In this document: positions 6,468 through 37,772 of the stretch, piece by piece | Layout of the letters: each line of letters begins with the position of its first letter | Position numbering within the stretch: position 1 is the stretch's first letter | Assembly: GCA_027487685.1 (NCBI GenBank) | Contig: JAIYDC010000148.1 | Span: forward strand, 1-38,536 | Reading direction: 5' to 3' | DNA from: Pseudomonadota bacterium | GTDB taxonomy: Bacteria; Bdellovibrionota; Bacteriovoracia; Bacteriovoracales; Bacteriovoracaceae | DNA: 38,536 bases | The notes under the pieces: model-generated | What the model was told of the DNA's origin: nothing | Seen by the model: only the letters and a program-made list of their open reading frames with translations | The model's database searches: none | Program-made: the position numbers and the translations under genes

Positions 6468-9029
6468 ATGGCAGACAAAAAATATCTGGTGATCGTGGAG
6501 TCTCCCACGAAGGCTAAGACCATCCGCAAGTTCCTTCCAAGTAATTATATTGTCGAAGCAAGCATGGGTCATATCCGGGATCTTCCGCAGTCTGCGTCTG
6601 ATATTCCGGCCGCTCTCAAAAAAGAAGAGTGGACTAAGTTAGGCGTCAACGTCGAGGAAAACTTCGAGCCACTCTACATCGTTCCCAAAGATAAGAAAAA
6701 GATAATCACCGACCTCAAGGCCAAAATGAAGGGCGTTGATATCATCTACCTCGCGACCGACGAAGACCGCGAGGGAGAGTCGATCTCCTGGCACCTTCTA
6801 GAGCTTCTGAAGCCGAAGGTCCCTGTGAAACGGATGGTGTTCCACGAAATCACGAAGACCGCTATCCTGAAGGCGCTGAAAGAGACACGGGATGTTGACG
6901 AGAAGCTCGTTCGCGCCCAAGAGACCCGCCGGATCCTCGACCGGCTTTATGGCTACACGCTTTCGCCGCTTATCTGGAAGAAGATTGCCTACGGTCTTTC
7001 CGCCGGCCGAGTTCAGTCCACTGGCCTTAAGATGATCTGCGAGCGCGAACGGGAGCGGATGCGCTTTAAGCGCTCGGTCTATTGGGACATTAAGGCCCAA
7101 GTCCATCCGGAGAAAGATAGAAAGGCCCTCTTCGACGCTAAACTCACTTCCGTAAAAGGCGGCCGTGTTGCCGGCGGTAAGGACTTTGATGGTCTGACGG
7201 GTAAGTTGACGGATGAGAAGAAGGTTGTGCTTCTCGACGAAAAAATGTCGAAGGATCTTGCCAAGAATATTGAAAAGGCGGCTTGGAAAGTCATCTCCGT
7301 GGAGGAGAAGACGTTTAATTCGAAGCCTGCCATTCCGTTTATCACCTCTACGCTCCAGATGGAGTCCAACCGAAAGCTCGGTATGTCTTCTAAGGACACG
7401 ATGAGGACGGCCCAGCGGCTCTATGAAGAAGGTCTCATCACCTATATGAGAACGGACTCCCCAAACCTCTCCCAGGAGGCGATCAATGCCGCCCGGACGA
7501 TGGTGGTTGAGCTGTACGGAAAGAACTACCTGAATCCAGAAGTTCGGCAGTACCAGGCGAAGACTAAGGGCGCACAAGAGGCCCACGAGGCCATTCGCCC
7601 AGCGGGTGCAGAGTTTACGCACCCAGAAAAAACCGGTCTTTCTGGACGGGAACTTCAGCTCTATGAGCTTATCTGGAAGCGCACCATGGCGACCCAGATG
7701 AAGGAAGCCGAGAAGGCTTCTATGACGATCAAGATTGAGGCCGGGGAGGCCGAGTTCTCATCAAGCGGAACTCGGATCTTATTTCCTGGTTTTCTTCGCG
7801 TGTACGTCGAGGGCTCGGACGATCCGGAAGCAGCTCTCGAAGACAAGGAAGTCATCCTTCCGGTCCTGAAAAAGGGTGACCTCCTGAAGGCCGCAGTCAT
7901 TTCGCCGGAACATCACGAGACCAAGCCTCCGGCACGATTTACTGAAGCATCGATCGTTCAGTCTTTGGAAAAAGAGGGCGTGGGCCGACCTTCAACCTAC
8001 GCCTCGATTATTGGCACGATCCTCGACCGGGGCTACGTCCGAAAAGATGGCTCTGCTCTTATTCCAACGTTCACGGGAATGGCCGTGATCCAGCTCCTTG
8101 AGAATCATTTCGAGCACCTGGTCGACTACTCCTTTACTTCAGAGATGGAGGCCTCTCTGGATAAGATTGCTTACGGTGAAGAGGATTGGTTGAAGTACCT
8201 GACGAAGTTCTATAAGGGCAAAACGGGACTCGCCAAGAGAGTTGAGGAGCAGGATAAAAAGATCAAGCCTGAGGAATCTCGGACGATCCATATCACCAAA
8301 GATGGCAAAGATATGGATATCAAGGTCGGGCGCTTTGGGCCCTATGTGGTCGAGATCAATGGCAAGGATGAGGTCCACGCATCGATTCCTGAAGACATTG
8401 CACCGGCAGACCTTGACCCAGAGCAGATCAAAGAGTTAATTAAAACTCATGCCGAGGGCCCAAAGCCCATCGGAAAAGATCCCAAAACGAAGCAAAGTAT
8501 TTATGTTCTGGTCGGGCGCTATGGAGCGTACTTCCAGCTGGGTGAAGTCACAGATGAGAACCCAAAGCCCAAGCGTGCCTCTCTTCCTAAGGGGAAAGAT
8601 CCAAAAACGGTAACTGTGGATGAGGCGGTTCAGGCGCTTTCTCTCCCGAGGGAGCTGGGTCTTCATCCAGAGACGAAGAAGCCGGTTCTTGCCAATAATG
8701 GAAGGTTCGGGCCCTACGTCATGCACGAGGGGAACTTCCGTTCTTTAAAGAAAGAGGACGACCTGCACAGCGTAGATCTTAAGCGTGCTGTGGAGCTTCT
8801 TTCTGAAGAGAAAGGAGCATCTCGCCGGGGTGGTAAGGTTTTACGGGATTTTGGTCTGGTGGCGAAACTCAAAAAGAAGGCCCAGGTGTTGGATGGGAAG
8901 TATGGACCTTACATCAAAGTGGGCACCAAAAACATCACCCTTCCGGAAGACAAGAGAGATCCCAAAGTTATTGAAAAGATGACGGAAGCTGAACTCGCTA
9001 GCATCGTTCTAGCAGCGGCCAAGAAGTAG
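6468..9029 (+). CDS. topA: DNA topoisomerase I (type IA)
   Basis: Relaxes negatively supercoiled DNA through a transient 5'-phosphotyrosine link. The N-terminal Toprim domain starts VIVESPTKAKTIRKFL, and its acidic triad lies in ATDEDREGE near residue 95. The topoisomerase IA core carries SAGRVQSTGLKMIC and the active-site tyrosine Y326 in GLITYMRTDSPNLS. Beyond residue about 600 there are no Cys4 zinc fingers as in E. coli TopA. Instead there are four lysine-rich repeats around G[RK][FY]GPY (GRFGPYVVE, GRYGAYFQL, GRFGPYVMH, GKYGPYIKV), the C-terminal repeat type seen in many non-enteric bacteria. The 853-residue length is normal. It ends 30 bases before a separate promoter for rpmE2. Confidence 0.97.
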   Translation: MADKKYLVIVESPTKAKTIRKFLPSNYIVEASMGHIRDLPQSASDIPAALKKEEWTKLGVNVEENFEPLYIVPKDKKKIITDLKAKMKGVDIIYLATDEDREGESISWHLLELLKPKVPVKRMVFHEITKTAILKALKETRDVDEKLVRAQETRRILDRLYGYTLSPLIWKKIAYGLSAGRVQSTGLKMICERERERMRFKRSVYWDIKAQVHPEKDRKALFDAKLTSVKGGRVAGGKDFDGLTGKLTDEKKVVLLDEKMSKDLAKNIEKAAWKVISVEEKTFNSKPAIPFITSTLQMESNRKLGMSSKDTMRTAQRLYEEGLITYMRTDSPNLSQEAINAARTMVVELYGKNYLNPEVRQYQAKTKGAQEAHEAIRPAGAEFTHPEKTGLSGRELQLYELIWKRTMATQMKEAEKASMTIKIEAGEAEFSSSGTRILFPGFLRVYVEGSDDPEAALEDKEVILPVLKKGDLLKAAVISPEHHETKPPARFTEASIVQSLEKEGVGRPSTYASIIGTILDRGYVRKDGSALIPTFTGMAVIQLLENHFEHLVDYSFTSEMEASLDKIAYGEEDWLKYLTKFYKGKTGLAKRVEEQDKKIKPEESRTIHITKDGKDMDIKVGRFGPYVVEINGKDEVHASIPEDIAPADLDPEQIKELIKTHAEGPKPIGKDPKTKQSIYVLVGRYGAYFQLGEVTDENPKPKRASLPKGKDPKTVTVDEAVQALSLPRELGLHPETKKPVLANNGRFGPYVMHEGNFRSLKKEDDLHSVDLKRAVELLSEEKGASRRGGKVLRDFGLVAKLKKKAQVLDGKYGPYIKVGTKNITLPEDKRDPKVIEKMTEAELASIVLAAAKK

Positions 9030-9059
9030 GTTGGTGACTGTTTTTTCAACGACTTTTCG

Positions 9060-9088
9060 TTGACAGCTAGCGCCCTCCTAGGTATCTT
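9060..9088 (+). promoter_or_regulatory. strong sigma-70 promoter for rpmE2
   Basis: Consensus -35 TTGACA (9060-9065), 17-base spacer, -10 TATCTT (9083-9088). It lies 47 bases before the rpmE2 start codon. The -35 overlaps the right arm of a small hairpin (CAACG / CGTTG, 9048-9062) just downstream of the topA stop. Confidence 0.8.
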
Positions 9089-9135: not shown

Positions 9136-9378
9136 ATGAAAAAAGGTATCCACCCAGAGTACAGAGACGTTGTTTTCAAGGACGTTTCTTCTGATTTTGA
9201 AATCATCACACGTTCTACGATCAAAACTTCTGATAAGACGACTCTGAACGGCAAAGAATATCCACTCTATAAAGTCGATATCTCCTCTGCTTCTCATCCA
9301 TTCTACACAGGCACTCAGCGTGTTATGGACACAGAAGGCCGCGTTGACCGCTTCAAGAAGAAGTACGGCAAGAAGTAG
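9136..9378 (+). CDS. rpmE2: 50S ribosomal protein L31, type B (zinc-free)
   Basis: An 80-residue L31 with the type B signature: [15 protein letters not shown], then [11 protein letters not shown], then [20 protein letters not shown] and a basic tail. It has no CxxC zinc motif, so it is the C-minus form. In bacteria with both forms this one is induced by zinc shortage; here it has a near-consensus promoter and no obvious Zur-like palindrome, which suggests constitutive use. I chose ATG 9136 because AAGGA lies 7 bases upstream and the product then matches the family start. An in-frame start at 9106 would add ten residues with no support. Confidence 0.95.
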
Positions 9379-9397
9379 TCATTCTCAAATTGATTTT

Positions 9398-9430
9398 AAA
9401 AAAAAGGCTCCGAAAGGAGCCTTTTTTTTT
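9398..9430. terminator. bidirectional terminator after rpmE2
   Basis: A8, then GGCTCC (9406-9411), a GAAA tetraloop, GGAGCC (9416-9421) and T9 (9422-9430). The A and T tracts on the two sides let it work for rpmE2 (+) and for the exported-protein gene arriving from the minus strand. Confidence 0.95.
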
Positions 9431-32364: not shown

Positions 32365-32940
32365 ATGACACCGAACAAACAATTCCTCATTCTAGGGCGT
32401 GGCCTAGTCTTTTCTTTCCTCATGACCCTTTCTTCTGCTTGGGCAGAGACGAAGCTTACTCTCGAGCCGCTGTTTGGTGTCGAGACTCGGCTAGTCCGGT
32501 ACCCAGAGCCGTCCCGCTATGTAACGGGTGCGACCTATGGGGCCCGGCTATTGTATGGGACGACTCTTCTTTCAGGGGAGGCAGAGTACACGACCACTCT
32601 GTCCCGAAGCGATTACCCCGGCCAGGACGTGAAGGTGGAGGACCGGGCAGAACGGGCAGGAGTGGGCCTTCGGACGACTTTTCCGGTGTCGTCATTTCTT
32701 GGGGCCTATGTGCGTGCCGGAGGTCGGGCAAGTCAAGGGGAATCGGTGGTTACTACGAACGGTGTGGCCGAGACGAAGGAAAACCCGCTTCGGGTTGATC
32801 CCTATGCCGGTGCCGGTCTTCAGCTAGCGTTCCACCAGTTCTTTGCTCTGAACGCCGGGGTCACAATGATCCGTAACGGAGAAGGTAAGTATGATTCGCA
32901 GTACTCGCTGGGTCTCTCCGGGCGCTTCGGCAACCTCTAA
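32365..32940 (+). CDS. small outer-membrane beta-barrel protein
   Basis: 191 residues: a signal peptide (LVFSFLMTLSSAWAE) and alternating amphipathic strands (TLEPLFGVETRLVRY, TYGARLLYGTTLLSGEAEYTTTL, GVGLRTTF, LGAYVRAGGR, PYAGAGLQLAFHQFFALNAGVTMI), ending in SLGLSGRFGNL. The size and strand pattern fit an eight-stranded barrel. The last residue is not phenylalanine, but the GRFGNL end is similar to many barrels. No specific family is recognised. Confidence 0.75.
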   Translation: MTPNKQFLILGRGLVFSFLMTLSSAWAETKLTLEPLFGVETRLVRYPEPSRYVTGATYGARLLYGTTLLSGEAEYTTTLSRSDYPGQDVKVEDRAERAGVGLRTTFPVSSFLGAYVRAGGRASQGESVVTTNGVAETKENPLRVDPYAGAGLQLAFHQFFALNAGVTMIRNGEGKYDSQYSLGLSGRFGNL

Positions 32941-33022: not shown

Positions 33023-33886
33023 ATGAAGTTCGCCAGCTACTTGTTACTCACACTTGTCTTAAGCTCCTGCGCTTCTCGAAAAGAGGGTTGGCAAAATGAG
33101 ACTAAGTCCGTTTCTCTTAGCACTTCTGAGGAAGCACGGATCCTGGCGGAGGCGAAGGCCCTTTGGTCGGAACGAGTTGAAACCGTCAAGCTGCAACAGT
33201 CCCTTGCAAAGTTCGAAGAGCTCCACCGCGCTCGGCCTGATGCTTTGGAACCACTCGTTTACCTGACACGTGGAACCTACTTCCTTGCCGACTCCCAACT
33301 CGACGAGGTGACTCAGAAAAAAGAGGCTTATGAGCGCGCCGCTGCTTTTGGAGAAAAAGCGATGGCGACGAATTCAGAATTTCGGAAGCTTGTTGCGGGG
33401 GGAAAGTCTCTTGAGGAATCCCTTGGAGTATTGACTGCAGCTGAAGTCCCTGCCATCTACTGGACGGCAGCGAGCCTCGGGAAGTGGGCGAAGGCGAGTG
33501 GGATCACCGCTGCCCTTAAGTATAAAACTCGTATCAAAGCGATGATTGAGCGAGTTGAGAAGCTTCAATCCGACTACTTCTACGGCGCTGCCACTCGCTA
33601 CTGGGGTGGCTACTACTCTGTCGCGCCTTCTTTTGCTGGCGGTGATATAAAGAAAAGTCGGGCCTCTTTCGACCGCTCGATCGCTGCGGCGCCTGAGTAT
33701 TTAGGCACAAAAGTGCTCATGGCCGAAGTCTATGCCACTAAGACTCAGGACCGGAAGCTCTTCGACGCTCTTTTGCGAGAGGTTCTTTCTTCTCAAGAGG
33801 ATCGACACCCGGAACTTGGGCCAGAGAACACTTGGGAGAAGAAGAAGGCCCAGCGACTCCTCAATAACGCAGACGAACTTTTCTAA
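33023..33886 (+). CDS. tatT: TatT-like TRAP-associated lipoprotein
   Basis: 287-residue predicted lipoprotein with lipobox LVLSSC (MKFASYLLLTLVLSSCASRK) and an all-helical TPR-like body, including KFEELHRARPDALEPLVYLTRG, TYFLADSQ and YYSVAPSFAGGDIKKSRASFDRSIAAAPEYLG. This matches the TAtT (TRAP transporter T-component) proteins described for Treponema pallidum, which form trimers with a pore and contact the binding protein. It is the first gene of the operon, and its stop is inside the ribosome binding site of dctP. AGGAGG lies 6 bases before ATG 33023; an in-frame ATG at 33005 is less likely. In the periplasm it may store or channel ligand to DctP. Confidence 0.85.
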   Translation: MKFASYLLLTLVLSSCASRKEGWQNETKSVSLSTSEEARILAEAKALWSERVETVKLQQSLAKFEELHRARPDALEPLVYLTRGTYFLADSQLDEVTQKKEAYERAAAFGEKAMATNSEFRKLVAGGKSLEESLGVLTAAEVPAIYWTAASLGKWAKASGITAALKYKTRIKAMIERVEKLQSDYFYGAATRYWGGYYSVAPSFAGGDIKKSRASFDRSIAAAPEYLGTKVLMAEVYATKTQDRKLFDALLREVLSSQEDRHPELGPENTWEKKKAQRLLNNADELF

Positions 33887-33896
33887 GGAGTTCTCC

Positions 33897-34889
33897 ATGA
33901 AACTCACGTTGCTCTTCCTCCTCCTTTCGACCCAGGCCTATGCCAAAGAACTTTCGGTCAAGTTCGGAACTATTGCTCCTGCGGGAACACCCTGGGCCGA
34001 CTCGCTAGAAGAAATCAAAGTTCGTGTCGGCAAGGAATCGGGAAATCAGATCAAGATCAAAACTTTCCTCGGAGGCCAACTCGGAGGGGAGCTTGAGATC
34101 ATGCAAAAGATCCGTCGCGGGAATATCGAGGGCGGTGGCCTGACCTGTGGGGCCATGGCGAGCATTATCCCTGAGCTCGATCTTTTAGAAGTGCCCTATC
34201 TTTTTGAGAGTTCTGAGGAAGCCGACTTTATCCTCGATAACTACCTCCTCGTACCCTTCCGGAAACTGTTTGAGGCCAAAGGCTTCGTGATGCTCACCTG
34301 GGCTGAGAATGGTTGGAGGAGCATTGGGCACAAGTCTAAGCTCATCAAGTCGCCGTCTGACTTGAAGGCGGTGAAGATCCGCTCCCAGGAGTCCAAGGTT
34401 CACCTCGCATTTTGGAAGAAAGTAGGGGCGTCGCCCGTTGCAATTGCGACACCGGAGGTTCTGCCGGCACTCCAGACGGGAGTCGTAGAGGCTTTTGATA
34501 ATACGCCACTCTTTACTCTTGCGGCCGAGTGGCAGACGGCGATCAAGTTCTACTCCGTCACGAATCACATCTATCAGCCAGCGGCGGTGTTCTACTCTAA
34601 AAAATTCTGGGACCGTCTCGATGCGAATCAGAAAAAGATTCTGACAGGCCCAGGCAATGGTCTTGCCAGAGAGATCCGCTCGAACGTCCGCAAACTGGGC
34701 GAAGGTCTTCTGGCCGTGTTGAAGGAGTCTGGTGTTAACACCTATAATTTAACTGCAGCTGAGCGAGAATCATTTAAGAAGGCTTCCGAGGGACTTGCGG
34801 AACAGGCAGTGAAAGATATCGGAGGAGAGTCTGCGAAAATCTTCGCCCTTATTCAAGAGGGTAAAAAAGCATTCAAGGCCAAGAAATGA
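33897..34889 (+). CDS. dctP: TRAP transporter substrate-binding protein (DctP family)
   Basis: 330 residues with a signal peptide (MKLTLLFLLLSTQAYAKE). The DctP fold is shown by FGTIAPAGTPWADSLEEIK, NIEGGGLTCGAMASIIPELDLLEVPYLF, LKAVKIRSQES (the R is the usual carboxylate-binding arginine), LPALQTGVVEAFDNTPLFT and QPAAVFYSKKFWDRL. DctP proteins usually bind a carboxylate; in TatP-type systems the ligand may be hydrophobic. AAGGAG lies 6 bases upstream and overlaps the tatT stop. The ORF overlaps dctQ as ATGA. Confidence 0.95.
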   Translation: MKLTLLFLLLSTQAYAKELSVKFGTIAPAGTPWADSLEEIKVRVGKESGNQIKIKTFLGGQLGGELEIMQKIRRGNIEGGGLTCGAMASIIPELDLLEVPYLFESSEEADFILDNYLLVPFRKLFEAKGFVMLTWAENGWRSIGHKSKLIKSPSDLKAVKIRSQESKVHLAFWKKVGASPVAIATPEVLPALQTGVVEAFDNTPLFTLAAEWQTAIKFYSVTNHIYQPAAVFYSKKFWDRLDANQKKILTGPGNGLAREIRSNVRKLGEGLLAVLKESGVNTYNLTAAERESFKKASEGLAEQAVKDIGGESAKIFALIQEGKKAFKAKK

Positions 34890-35374
34890 TCAATCGATTT
34901 TTTCAAGTACTCACAAAGATTGAAGCTCTCATTGCCTCTGTCCTCGTGCTGATTCTTACAGTCTTTGTCATCCTCGATGTAGGCGCCCGGGAGCTTTTCC
35001 GCACTGGCATTCCCTGGGCCCAGAAGGGAGCGGTTTATATGATGATCTGGGCCGGCTTCCTCGGGGCGATTCTCGTTGCCCAGAAGGTCGAGCACCTGCG
35101 GCCTGAAGTTGCCGACAAACTCTGGACAGGAAAACTGCGCCCTATCTATCTGCGTCTTCACAACCTCCTGGTGTTTGGTTTCACAGCGGCCATGACATAC
35201 TACTCTTGGACCTATGTTCTGGAGTCGAGAGAGTTTGCGGATCGAAATGTCATCATCGATATGCCTATGTGGGTGCTCCAGGCAATCATTCCCTATACCT
35301 TCTTCTCCATGAGCCTCCGTTACCTCTATTTTATCTTCTCTCCCCGTGAGAAAGATCCTCAGGCGGTGCACTAA
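34886..35374 (+). CDS. dctQ: TRAP transporter small membrane subunit (DctQ)
   Basis: 162 residues with four predicted transmembrane helices (LIASVLVLILTVFVILDVGARELF, GAVYMMIWAGFLGAILVA, LLVFGFTAAMTYYSW, IIPYTFFSMSLRYLYFIF). Motifs RELFRTGIPWAQKGAVYMMIWAGFLGA and the conserved W are typical of DctQ. The start overlaps dctP (ATGA) and the stop overlaps dctM (TAATG). It scaffolds the large subunit in the inner membrane. Confidence 0.94.
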   Translation: MINRFFQVLTKIEALIASVLVLILTVFVILDVGARELFRTGIPWAQKGAVYMMIWAGFLGAILVAQKVEHLRPEVADKLWTGKLRPIYLRLHNLLVFGFTAAMTYYSWTYVLESREFADRNVIIDMPMWVLQAIIPYTFFSMSLRYLYFIFSPREKDPQAVH

Positions 35375-36633
35375 TGGCAACGAGTCTTCTTATTGGCCTA
35401 GCACTGGTCGTATCACTCCTTTTGGGTCTTCCTTTGTTTGTTATTATGGGTGCCCTGGCCGGCATCTGCTACATCAATGTCTCCGGGGAAACGCTCTCCG
35501 TCGTTGTTGGTGACATCTTTTATGCCGCAGACAAAGAGATCCTTCTGGCGATTCCGCTCTTTGTTCTGGCCGGGCAAATTATGACCAAAGGGAGCATCTC
35601 AAAGCGCCTGATCAATGTCGCTCGCTCGCTCACCGCCGGAATCCCAGGGGGCATGGGAGTCGCGGCGATCCTCTCCTGTGCGGTCTTTGCGGCCATCTCG
35701 GGCTCTTCGCCAGTGACTCTGATTGCGATAGGGTCGCTTATGTACCCGGCACTCCTCGAGGCAGGGTATTCAAAAAAACTCTCTGCCGGCGTCCTGGCGA
35801 CTGGTGGAACCCTTGGCATCATTATCCCGCCGAGCATTCCCATGATCATCTTCGCGATTATGGCCGGAGTGAGTGTGGTTGACCTCTTTAAGGCAGGTAT
35901 TGGCCCCGGGATTCTCCTGGTTGTATTGCTTTCGGGCTACATGCTCTATGCCCGTCCCAAAATTCATACGACGACCTTTCAACTAAAATCCTTTCTCGCA
36001 GACCTTCGGCGCGGCGTCTTCTCACTTCTTATGCCGGTTATCATCCTCGGGGGAATCTACAGCGGCTTTTTTACCGCTACCGAATCTGCGGCCGTTGCCG
36101 TTCTCTATGCCGTGATTGTTGAGTTCCTTATCCACCGTGAACTACAATTCTCTGAATTCCTTGCGGTCTTCAGGGAGACTGCTGAAATGCTCGGGATGCT
36201 CTTTCTCATCCTGATTCTCGCCGTGAGCTTGAATAAATTTATGACTTTCGAGCAGATTCCTCAGCTCATGGTCGACTGGATGTCATCGCTTATTAGCTCT
36301 AAGATCACCTTCCTCCTGGCGGTGAATTTGCTCCTTCTGATTGTTGGTTGCTTCATGGATATCATGAGTGCAATCCTCGTGCTGGCACCAATCCTCACCC
36401 CGATGGCCATCCACTATGGCGTAGACCCTGTCCATTTTGGAATCATCATGATCGTCAACTTAGAGATCGGCTACCTAACACCACCGATAGGTATCAACCT
36501 CTTCGTCGCTTCAGGGATCTTTAAGCAACCTCTAGTGGAGGTGATCCGTGCTGTTCTGCCTTTCCTTGTCGTGATGCTCGTGGGTCTGGCGATTATCTCC
36601 TTCTTCCCTTGGATTAGTTTGGTCTTCGTATGA
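35374..36633 (+). CDS. dctM: TRAP transporter large membrane subunit (DctM)
   Basis: 419 residues, about 12 transmembrane segments, with the DctM signatures SGSSPVTLIAIGSLMYPALLEAGYSK, ATGGTLGIIIPPSIPMIIFAIMAGVSV, TATESAAVAVLYAVI, VGCFMDIMSAILVLAPILTPMA and EIGYLTPPIGINLFVASGI. These build the elevator-type sodium-driven transport domain. It shares a base with the dctQ stop (TAATG) and overlaps the next gene as ATGA, so five genes are translationally linked. Length is normal. Confidence 0.96.
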   Translation: MATSLLIGLALVVSLLLGLPLFVIMGALAGICYINVSGETLSVVVGDIFYAADKEILLAIPLFVLAGQIMTKGSISKRLINVARSLTAGIPGGMGVAAILSCAVFAAISGSSPVTLIAIGSLMYPALLEAGYSKKLSAGVLATGGTLGIIIPPSIPMIIFAIMAGVSVVDLFKAGIGPGILLVVLLSGYMLYARPKIHTTTFQLKSFLADLRRGVFSLLMPVIILGGIYSGFFTATESAAVAVLYAVIVEFLIHRELQFSEFLAVFRETAEMLGMLFLILILAVSLNKFMTFEQIPQLMVDWMSSLISSKITFLLAVNLLLLIVGCFMDIMSAILVLAPILTPMAIHYGVDPVHFGIIMIVNLEIGYLTPPIGINLFVASGIFKQPLVEVIRAVLPFLVVMLVGLAIISFFPWISLVFV

Positions 36634-37322
36634 TAGATTACTGGTCGATTTTCGCGCGCACAGATTGCTTCCCGAACTGTGGCTGCGAGCGGATGATGGA
36701 CGGTTGCTGGATCTGCCAGCCCGTCTCTATCGCGAGTTCATTGCCCTACCTGATCGTCGCGGCCCTCCTTCTGCTTCGGAATAAGAAGCCAAGTAAAAAG
36801 CTTGTCCTCTGGTCGAGCTTTCTCGGAATTGTGGGCATCTCGAGTATGTTTGCTCACTCAACCTACATCCGTGCCGCGATGGCGATGGACTATACTTCCA
36901 TCATCTTTCTCCAGACCTTCTTTTTCTTCACACGACTGATTGAGCGCTCTCCCCTCCAGCGCATCTCTCCGTATATTCTCTTCCCTGGTTACTACCTTTT
37001 CCTTTACGTCCTTCTAGTCCCCCTGGATGTGTGGTCTCAATTCTATGTGGCCCTCATCTTCTTCTCGGTGGCCTTGGTAGACTTCCTTTATCACAAAGGG
37101 CTGTCCATCCTTTGGGAACGGAATCTCATTATTTCGTTTTTCCTTCTGGGGATCTCGGTGATTTTCATGCTGATTGACAGATACCAGACGTTCTGTGCCA
37201 TGAAATACGTTCCCTACGGTCATGCCATTTGGCATCTCGGAAGTGCGTTATCCGCTTGGTACTTTGGATGGTGGTACTTTTATGAGCACGAAGTGAAACT
37301 TGAAGAAGCTGCTAAGAAGTAG
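36630..37322 (+). CDS. ceramidase-like (CREST superfamily) seven-helix membrane protein
   Basis: 230 residues with about seven transmembrane helices. Candidate active-site residues are S72 and H76 (ISSMFAHSTYIRAAMAMDYT), D87 and H198/H202 (YGHAIWHLGS). In human alkaline ceramidase ACER3 the zinc ligands are H81, H217 and H221, with S77 and D92 nearby; the spacings S+4=H, H+11=D and H-x3-H are identical here. The cysteine-rich N terminus with CE and QPVSIASSLPY parallels the N-terminal CE...NTxSN segment of ceramidases. So this is a predicted zinc-dependent intramembrane amidase or a relative. It is the last gene of the TRAP operon (4-base overlap with dctM). The substrate is unknown; a lipid amide or ester whose product feeds the transporter is my inference. 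Confidence 0.8.
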   Translation: MIDYWSIFARTDCFPNCGCERMMDGCWICQPVSIASSLPYLIVAALLLLRNKKPSKKLVLWSSFLGIVGISSMFAHSTYIRAAMAMDYTSIIFLQTFFFFTRLIERSPLQRISPYILFPGYYLFLYVLLVPLDVWSQFYVALIFFSVALVDFLYHKGLSILWERNLIISFFLLGISVIFMLIDRYQTFCAMKYVPYGHAIWHLGSALSAWYFGWWYFYEHEVKLEEAAKK

Positions 37323-37460: not shown

Positions 37461-37772
37461 CTAATACCTGGGGACGGTCGGGTCAATCTCAAGAGACCAG
37501 GCATCAATTCCTCCCCGAAGTGAAAGAGCATCGTGCCCTTGGTACTTGAGAAACTGTGTTGCGTAAAGGCTCCGGACCCCATGGTGGCAATAGACTATGA
37601 CCGGTAGCTTGTCCCGGGGTATTTCTTGAAAGCGTGCCTCAAGCTCATGGAGAGGAATATGTAAGCCACCCAGGTGACAGAGTTCTCTCTCGTCGTCCCG
37701 GCGCACATCAAGGAAGTGGAAGGCTTTATGATCAGTCAGCCAGTTTTGAATCTTCTTGTTGTCGATCTCCAT
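37461..37772 (-). CDS. rhodanese-domain sulfurtransferase
   Basis: 103-residue single rhodanese domain. The N-terminal part has HFLDVRRDDERELCHLGGLHIPL, and the active-site loop is VIVYCHHGVRS, with catalytic cysteine in CHHGVRS, followed by LRGGIDAWSLEIDP. Such domains carry persulfide sulfur. ATG 37772 begins 4 bases after the cysE stop, and AGGA is upstream; an in-frame upstream start would add residues encoded inside cysE. Pairing with cysE suggests a role in cysteine-linked sulfur transfer. Confidence 0.9.
   Translation of the reverse strand: MEIDNKKIQNWLTDHKAFHFLDVRRDDERELCHLGGLHIPLHELEARFQEIPRDKLPVIVYCHHGVRSLYATQFLKYQGHDALSLRGGIDAWSLEIDPTVPRY

Follow-up and report, generated by a model that had tools for sequence, protein, structure and literature searches.

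Introduction

The closest described relatives of the locus reported here are T-component transport systems and the alkaline ceramidases. In Treponema pallidum, TatT binds TatP in a complex that has a hydrophobic channel (PMC5812351), while BstC, a TatT relative that acts as the sterol-binding T-component of Methylococcus, binds sterols (PMC10942540). The ligands of TatT-type TRAP transporters have so far only been guessed, with hydrophobic molecules proposed in Treponema. Enzymes of the CREST superfamily hydrolyse lipid amides or esters, and receptors, hemolysin III and SID-1 are among the other groups of the superfamily (PMC3146951). In the alkaline ceramidase ACER3 the catalytic residues are essential, the serine nearly so (PMC9436119), and a calcium site is conserved in the ACERs (PMC6303388).

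Here we describe a window of 38,536 nucleotides, one entire contig of its Bacteriovoracaceae genome, at whose right end five co-directional genes (33023-37322) encode TatT, DctP, DctQ, DctM and a CREST protein. To our knowledge, no substrate or gene neighbourhood is known for any bacterial ceramidase-like CREST enzyme. A literature search found no published system of such a layout, and 'TRAP transporter' and 'ceramidase' occurred together in no paper; the first-pass annotation, which knew of no described system arranged in this way, agrees with the literature searched. The coupling of a CREST gene to a TatT-TRAP operon provides a joint testable hypothesis for the enzyme and the transporter.

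Results

A CREST gene follows a TatT-type TRAP operon

The five genes succeed one another with overlaps of one to four bases or a shared ribosome binding site, an order that can be read directly from the DNA and that the first-pass annotation had described correctly (Table 1). tatT is preceded by the ribosome binding site AGGAGG, and that of dctP (TAAGGAG) overlaps the tatT stop codon. The dctP/dctQ and dctM/CREST junctions are both four-base overlaps of the form ATGA, and dctQ and dctM overlap by a single base. The transporter had also been called 'fused genetically' to the enzyme; the genes are indeed linked, but they form five separate reading frames and no fusion. Promoter and terminator patterns at the operon were no more frequent than in shuffled sequence.

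The matches to PF03480, PF04290 and PF06808 all lie above their cut-offs, showing that DctP, DctQ and DctM components are present. The gene for the TAtT-family T-component adjoins that for the solute-binding protein, and its product is a lipoprotein by its LSSC lipobox, the cysteine of which occurs in 19/19 operon-linked TatT proteins compared. Positions 33023-36633 are thus a TatT-type TRAP (TPAT) operon. Among solved structures TatT matched 8g52 (9.6e-40) and T. pallidum TatT (3u64; 0.0036), and the KIR...VEAFDN region of DctP aligned to solved DctP proteins.

The outer-membrane beta-barrel gene located 82 bp upstream of tatT had been overlooked in the earlier annotation. Many relatives carry it at the same position, among them genomes that have lost dctPQM, and it is absent in G088 and G097. 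On the other side of the operon, the rhodanese gene is the first of a conserved downstream flank (rhodanese-cysE), which in relatives comes after dctM without a CREST gene.

Table 1. Features at the right end of the window, with the evidence for each assignment.
Feature	Coordinates	Strand	Evidence
Outer-membrane beta-barrel protein gene	32365..32940	+	PF13505 8e-6, just under cut-off
tatT: TRAP T-component lipoprotein, 287 aa	33023..33886	+	PF16811 (TAtT) 1e-36; lipobox LSSC
dctP: TRAP solute-binding protein, 330 aa	33897..34889	+	PF03480 4e-58; signal peptide, without lipobox
dctQ: TRAP small permease, 162 aa	34886..35374	+	PF04290 1.6e-22
dctM: TRAP large permease, 419 aa	35374..36633	+	PF06808 1e-104; TIGR00786 above cut-off
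CREST-superfamily (alkaline-ceramidase-like) seven-helix membrane protein gene, 230 aa	36630..37322	+	PF05875 1.8e-5, below cut-off
S72-x3-H76 motif (ACER3 S77, H81)	36843..36857	+	family profile alignment
D87 (ACER3 D92)	36888..36890	+	family profile alignment
H198-x3-H202 motif (ACER3 H217, H221)	37221..37235	+	family profile alignment
Convergent rhodanese gene	37461..37772	-	PF00581 1.1e-12; synteny

The CREST protein retains a predicted zinc site but not the calcium site of ACERs

The spacings of the CREST protein had been described as identical to those of ACER3. This holds within the motifs, where S-x3-H-x10-D and H-x3-H are spaced equally in the two proteins, but not between them, as the distance from the aspartate to the histidine motif is 111 residues here versus 125 in ACER3. 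S72, H76, D87, H198 and H202 are invariant in an alignment of 19 close relatives and, together with C189 and W201, in an alignment of 23 more diverse ones. The wider family profile (A4, 23 relatives) matched human ACER3 at E 1.5e-11 with S77, H81, D92, H217 and H221 aligned, followed by SID1 proteins, which are also CREST members; a narrow profile (A1) gave no match in the PDB up to E 1. Because the residues are invariant in 23 relatives, the profile finds ACER3 and an independent second assembly has the same arrangement, the motif is beyond chance.

Comparison of an AlphaFold model with the ACER3 structure, a check proposed in the first-pass annotation, placed ACER3 (6g7o) first of all solved structures. 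The AlphaFold2 model (pLDDT 83.7, pTM 0.80) was poor at the N-terminus and in the loop 190-193. ACER3 was the best solved match by Foldseek (E 1.4e-3, probability 1.00) and the best PDB match by structural alignment (Z 18.3 over 223 residues, rmsd 4.5), and the next structural matches were SID1, adiponectin receptors and myomaker, all of them CREST proteins that ranked ahead of every other fold family. The model has the seven-helix fold of the superfamily, with S72 and H76 at the end of TM2, D87 at the start of TM3 and H198 and H202 at the start of TM7. Residues and fold therefore agree with ACER3, suggesting that the predicted zinc site is intact.

A search with PF05875 had been proposed as a further check; the protein matches this model, yet at 24.8 bits it misses the curated cut-off of 32.5. 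The calcium site of the ACERs (D19-W20-C21-E22-x-N24 plus E33) is not kept either: the corresponding positions are C17, G18, C19, E20, M22 and Q30, such that only the equivalents of C21 and E22 are retained. Since the calcium side-chain ligands are all replaced and the score falls under the Pfam cut-off, the protein belongs to the CREST superfamily and is not an ACER proper, and of the earlier designation as an alkaline ceramidase only the superfamily assignment stands.

To place the active site relative to the membrane, the positive-inside rule was applied. Lysine and arginine number 5 on the active-site side and 13 on the other side, and the active-site side is the poorer in these residues in 19/19 aligned relatives. 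The conserved cysteines C13, C17, C19 and C189 are also found on this side. Based on the charge count and the cysteines, the active site is likely to be periplasmic.

The CREST gene was probably added to the operon in one lineage

The class set comprised 129 genomes, all of one family, with the named records being Bacteriovoracaceae. The TRAP clade of the window operon was detected in 17 of them (DctM 62-96% identical), and a CREST gene follows dctM in only two of these operons, that of the window genome (G000) and that of its sister species G088. The latter is a pond metagenome genome, an independent assembly with the same ATGA junction between dctM and the CREST gene. A narrower profile scan of the genome contigs returned 14 loci, of which only one (L134, in the G088 genome) has an adjoining TRAP system. 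By the terms of the first-pass annotation, a neighbourhood missing from relatives would refute the proposal, and all relatives but one lack it.

In G097, G092 and G114 the same operon and flank are present and the CREST gene is absent, with 127-163 bp before the next conserved gene, and in G103, G102, G085 and G095 the slot behind dctM holds other genes; the CREST gene was therefore probably added to the operon in one lineage rather than being ancestral. Slot contents include AbiE toxin-antitoxin genes (G103), a DnaJ-domain gene (G102) and a trypsin-like gene (G095). Most of these other genes point the opposite way and none overlaps dctM, leaving the CREST gene as the only one that is translationally coupled to dctM by overlap. 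CREST homologues located away from TRAP occur in 44 other class genomes, and in the genus most of them share a single conserved locus next to a QueD-like gene. Among the matches listed for 369 phylum genomes, compared by coordinates, there was no further CREST gene near tatT beyond G000 and G088. A neighbour shared by the TRAP clade in other genera, which might have provided a clue to the ligand, was sought and none was found.

Between G000 and G088 the dN/dS of the CREST gene is 0.026, comparable with 0.019-0.040 for the TRAP genes, at a dS of about 1.8. Because dN/dS is as low as in the TRAP genes and synonymous sites are near saturation, the CREST gene is a real, working gene that has long been kept in place under strong purifying selection. 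In a phylogenetic tree the G000 and G088 proteins are paired on a long stem that falls within the CREST clade of the genus, and the G+C content of the gene (0.49, window 0.51) bears no mark of foreign origin.

The window genome has a second CREST gene (L090, 8668-9357 on contig C85) at the genus-conserved locus beside the QueD-like gene, which is of the 6-pyruvoyl-tetrahydropterin synthase type. An origin of the operon gene as a recent copy of this second gene was rejected (AU p 0.011). The third PF05875 match of the genome (C2) has a very long branch and did not group; it was omitted from the second tree.

tatT persists in genomes without DctP or DctM

In five members of the genus (L184 in G104, L185 in G080, L186 in G082, L187 in G086 and L205 in G090) the locus that matches the window operon by synteny keeps tatT and has lost dctP, dctQ and dctM, and no DctP or DctM match was found anywhere in these genomes. 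The T-component can thus do without the transporter, which suggests a separable role of TatT. The orphan TatT proteins of one clade (L184, L185, L186, L187 and L202-L208) have no lipobox cysteine and carry an ordinary signal peptide. The association of orphan tatT with lipobox loss did not reach significance in independent pairs; it concerns mostly one clade, one evolutionary event.

Three further loci were observed. L197 (G093, 215-1901) is a tandem pair of tatT genes without dctPQM, the first with a lipobox and the second without. The window genome has a second TatT-TRAP operon (L092, contig C142), in which dctP is split into two reading frames at about 9300-9400 by an in-frame stop at an A run, either a mutation or an assembly error. 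Finally, L188 (G311, 6895-9062) is a tatT-dctP-dctQ set in another family of the same phylum, on a contig that ends inside dctQ; its TatT is 60% identical to that of the window, and the set was perhaps acquired by gene transfer.

Discussion

The locus is probably best explained as a TPAT operon of Bacteriovoracaceae to which the gene of a CREST membrane hydrolase was added behind dctM in a two-species lineage. According to this model, TatT and DctP would hand an amphipathic carboxylate to DctQM, and the CREST protein, presumably co-translated and co-expressed with the transporter, would sit in the inner membrane and hydrolyse lipid amides or esters in a zinc-dependent manner, its predicted active site facing the periplasm.

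It has been proposed that the enzyme feeds the transporter, with the CREST protein cleaving a lipid amide or ester in the periplasm and the acid being caught by TatT/DctP and imported by DctQM. Such coupling would be consistent with the predicted periplasmic active site and with the four-base co-directional overlap, which was kept in two species over a dS of about 1.8 and under strong constraint. Moreover, in DctP the arginine of KIR and the asparagine region EAFDN are retained, as in TRAP proteins that bind carboxylates (the role of the arginine in these solute-binding proteins is reviewed in PMC5812351), and both T. pallidum TatT and the sterol-binding BstC have hydrophobic cavities (PMC5812351; PMC10942540). 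However, 15/17 operons of the TRAP clade are without the CREST gene, and the transporter therefore does not need it; CREST homologues are kept apart from TRAP in the 44 other class genomes, the listed matches from the phylum place none near tatT elsewhere, and the closest solved DctP proteins carry the annotation of dicarboxylate-type rather than lipid binders. Given that the enzyme is missing from most operons of the clade and that the slot accepts unrelated genes, we regard a feeding role as unlikely, and its more specific form, in which a lipid-derived acid would be handed from the outer leaflet of the inner membrane directly to DctP/TatT for import, as more doubtful still. An independent, co-expressed role in lipid hydrolysis is somewhat more likely than one in feeding the TRAP system.

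A stricter form of the favoured explanation is that a permissive slot took up the CREST gene, which uses the operon transcript for a function unrelated to TRAP. The unrelated genes taken up by the slot in G103, G102 and G095 fit this proposal, as does the unrelated conserved locus of the other genus homologues; against it, most other insertions are oppositely oriented, none overlaps dctM, and only the CREST gene is translationally coupled, at a junction that has been kept. We consider this a serious possibility, if one short of an even chance. Alternatively, the CREST protein might be a relative that signals or lacks enzyme activity, as has been suggested for the PAQR receptors and for pore-forming proteins of the hemolysin III group. 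The superfamily does include receptors, hemolysin III and SID-1 (PMC3146951), and the ACER calcium-site residues have been lost; yet the family shows no variation at any of the five catalytic residues, which in ACER3 are essential or almost essential (PMC9436119), making a non-enzymatic protein improbable.

Returning to the CREST protein as a putative hydrolase, a ceramide-derived acid as its product has become less plausible. Serine palmitoyltransferase was searched for in the window's genome and not found, and the sole match to an alpha-oxoamine synthase model was bioF, beside bioB. Endogenous ceramide is thus an unlikely substrate, and ceramide would need an outside source. Within the same family, B. 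stolpii is a sphingolipid producer (PMC6148460).

The sister operons without a CREST gene are natural controls for studies of the enzyme and the transporter. Restriction of the arrangement to two species means that it is not general evidence on TatT function; the survival of tatT without DctP/DctM may prove of wider use.

Compared with TatT-TatP-TatQM of T. pallidum, the window operon has the same order of tatT before solute-binding and permease genes, with a T-component of the same Pfam family (TAtT) and a DctP that matches Tp33 (3u65) at 5.8e-15. It differs in having DctQ and DctM as separate proteins and a DctP that lacks a lipobox, and in being preceded by an outer-membrane barrel gene and followed by a CREST gene. 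TatT and BstC share the TAtT superfamily (NF045602 at 0.002, PDB 7t1s at 0.92), but TatT scores far below the BstC cut-off and the Bst system is without a DctPQM set. With ACER3 the CREST protein shares the seven-helix fold, the S-x3-H-x10-D and H-x3-H motifs, the C-E of the WCE motif (C19-E20) and a cysteine pair (C19 and C189, equivalent to ACER3 C21-C196), whereas the ACER3 calcium ligands D19, N24 and E33 are replaced by C17, M22 and Q30, W20 is replaced by G18, and the predicted orientation is opposite to that reported for ACER3. It resembles the bacterial CREST 'hypothetical groups 1 and 2' (Pei et al, 2011; PMC3146951) in being ceramidase-like, with function unassigned there; no gene-neighbourhood link was reported for those groups, whereas the window CREST gene lies in a TRAP operon. 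The TPAT operon and the CREST protein are both of known kinds; their combination, so far in two species, is absent from the literature searched.
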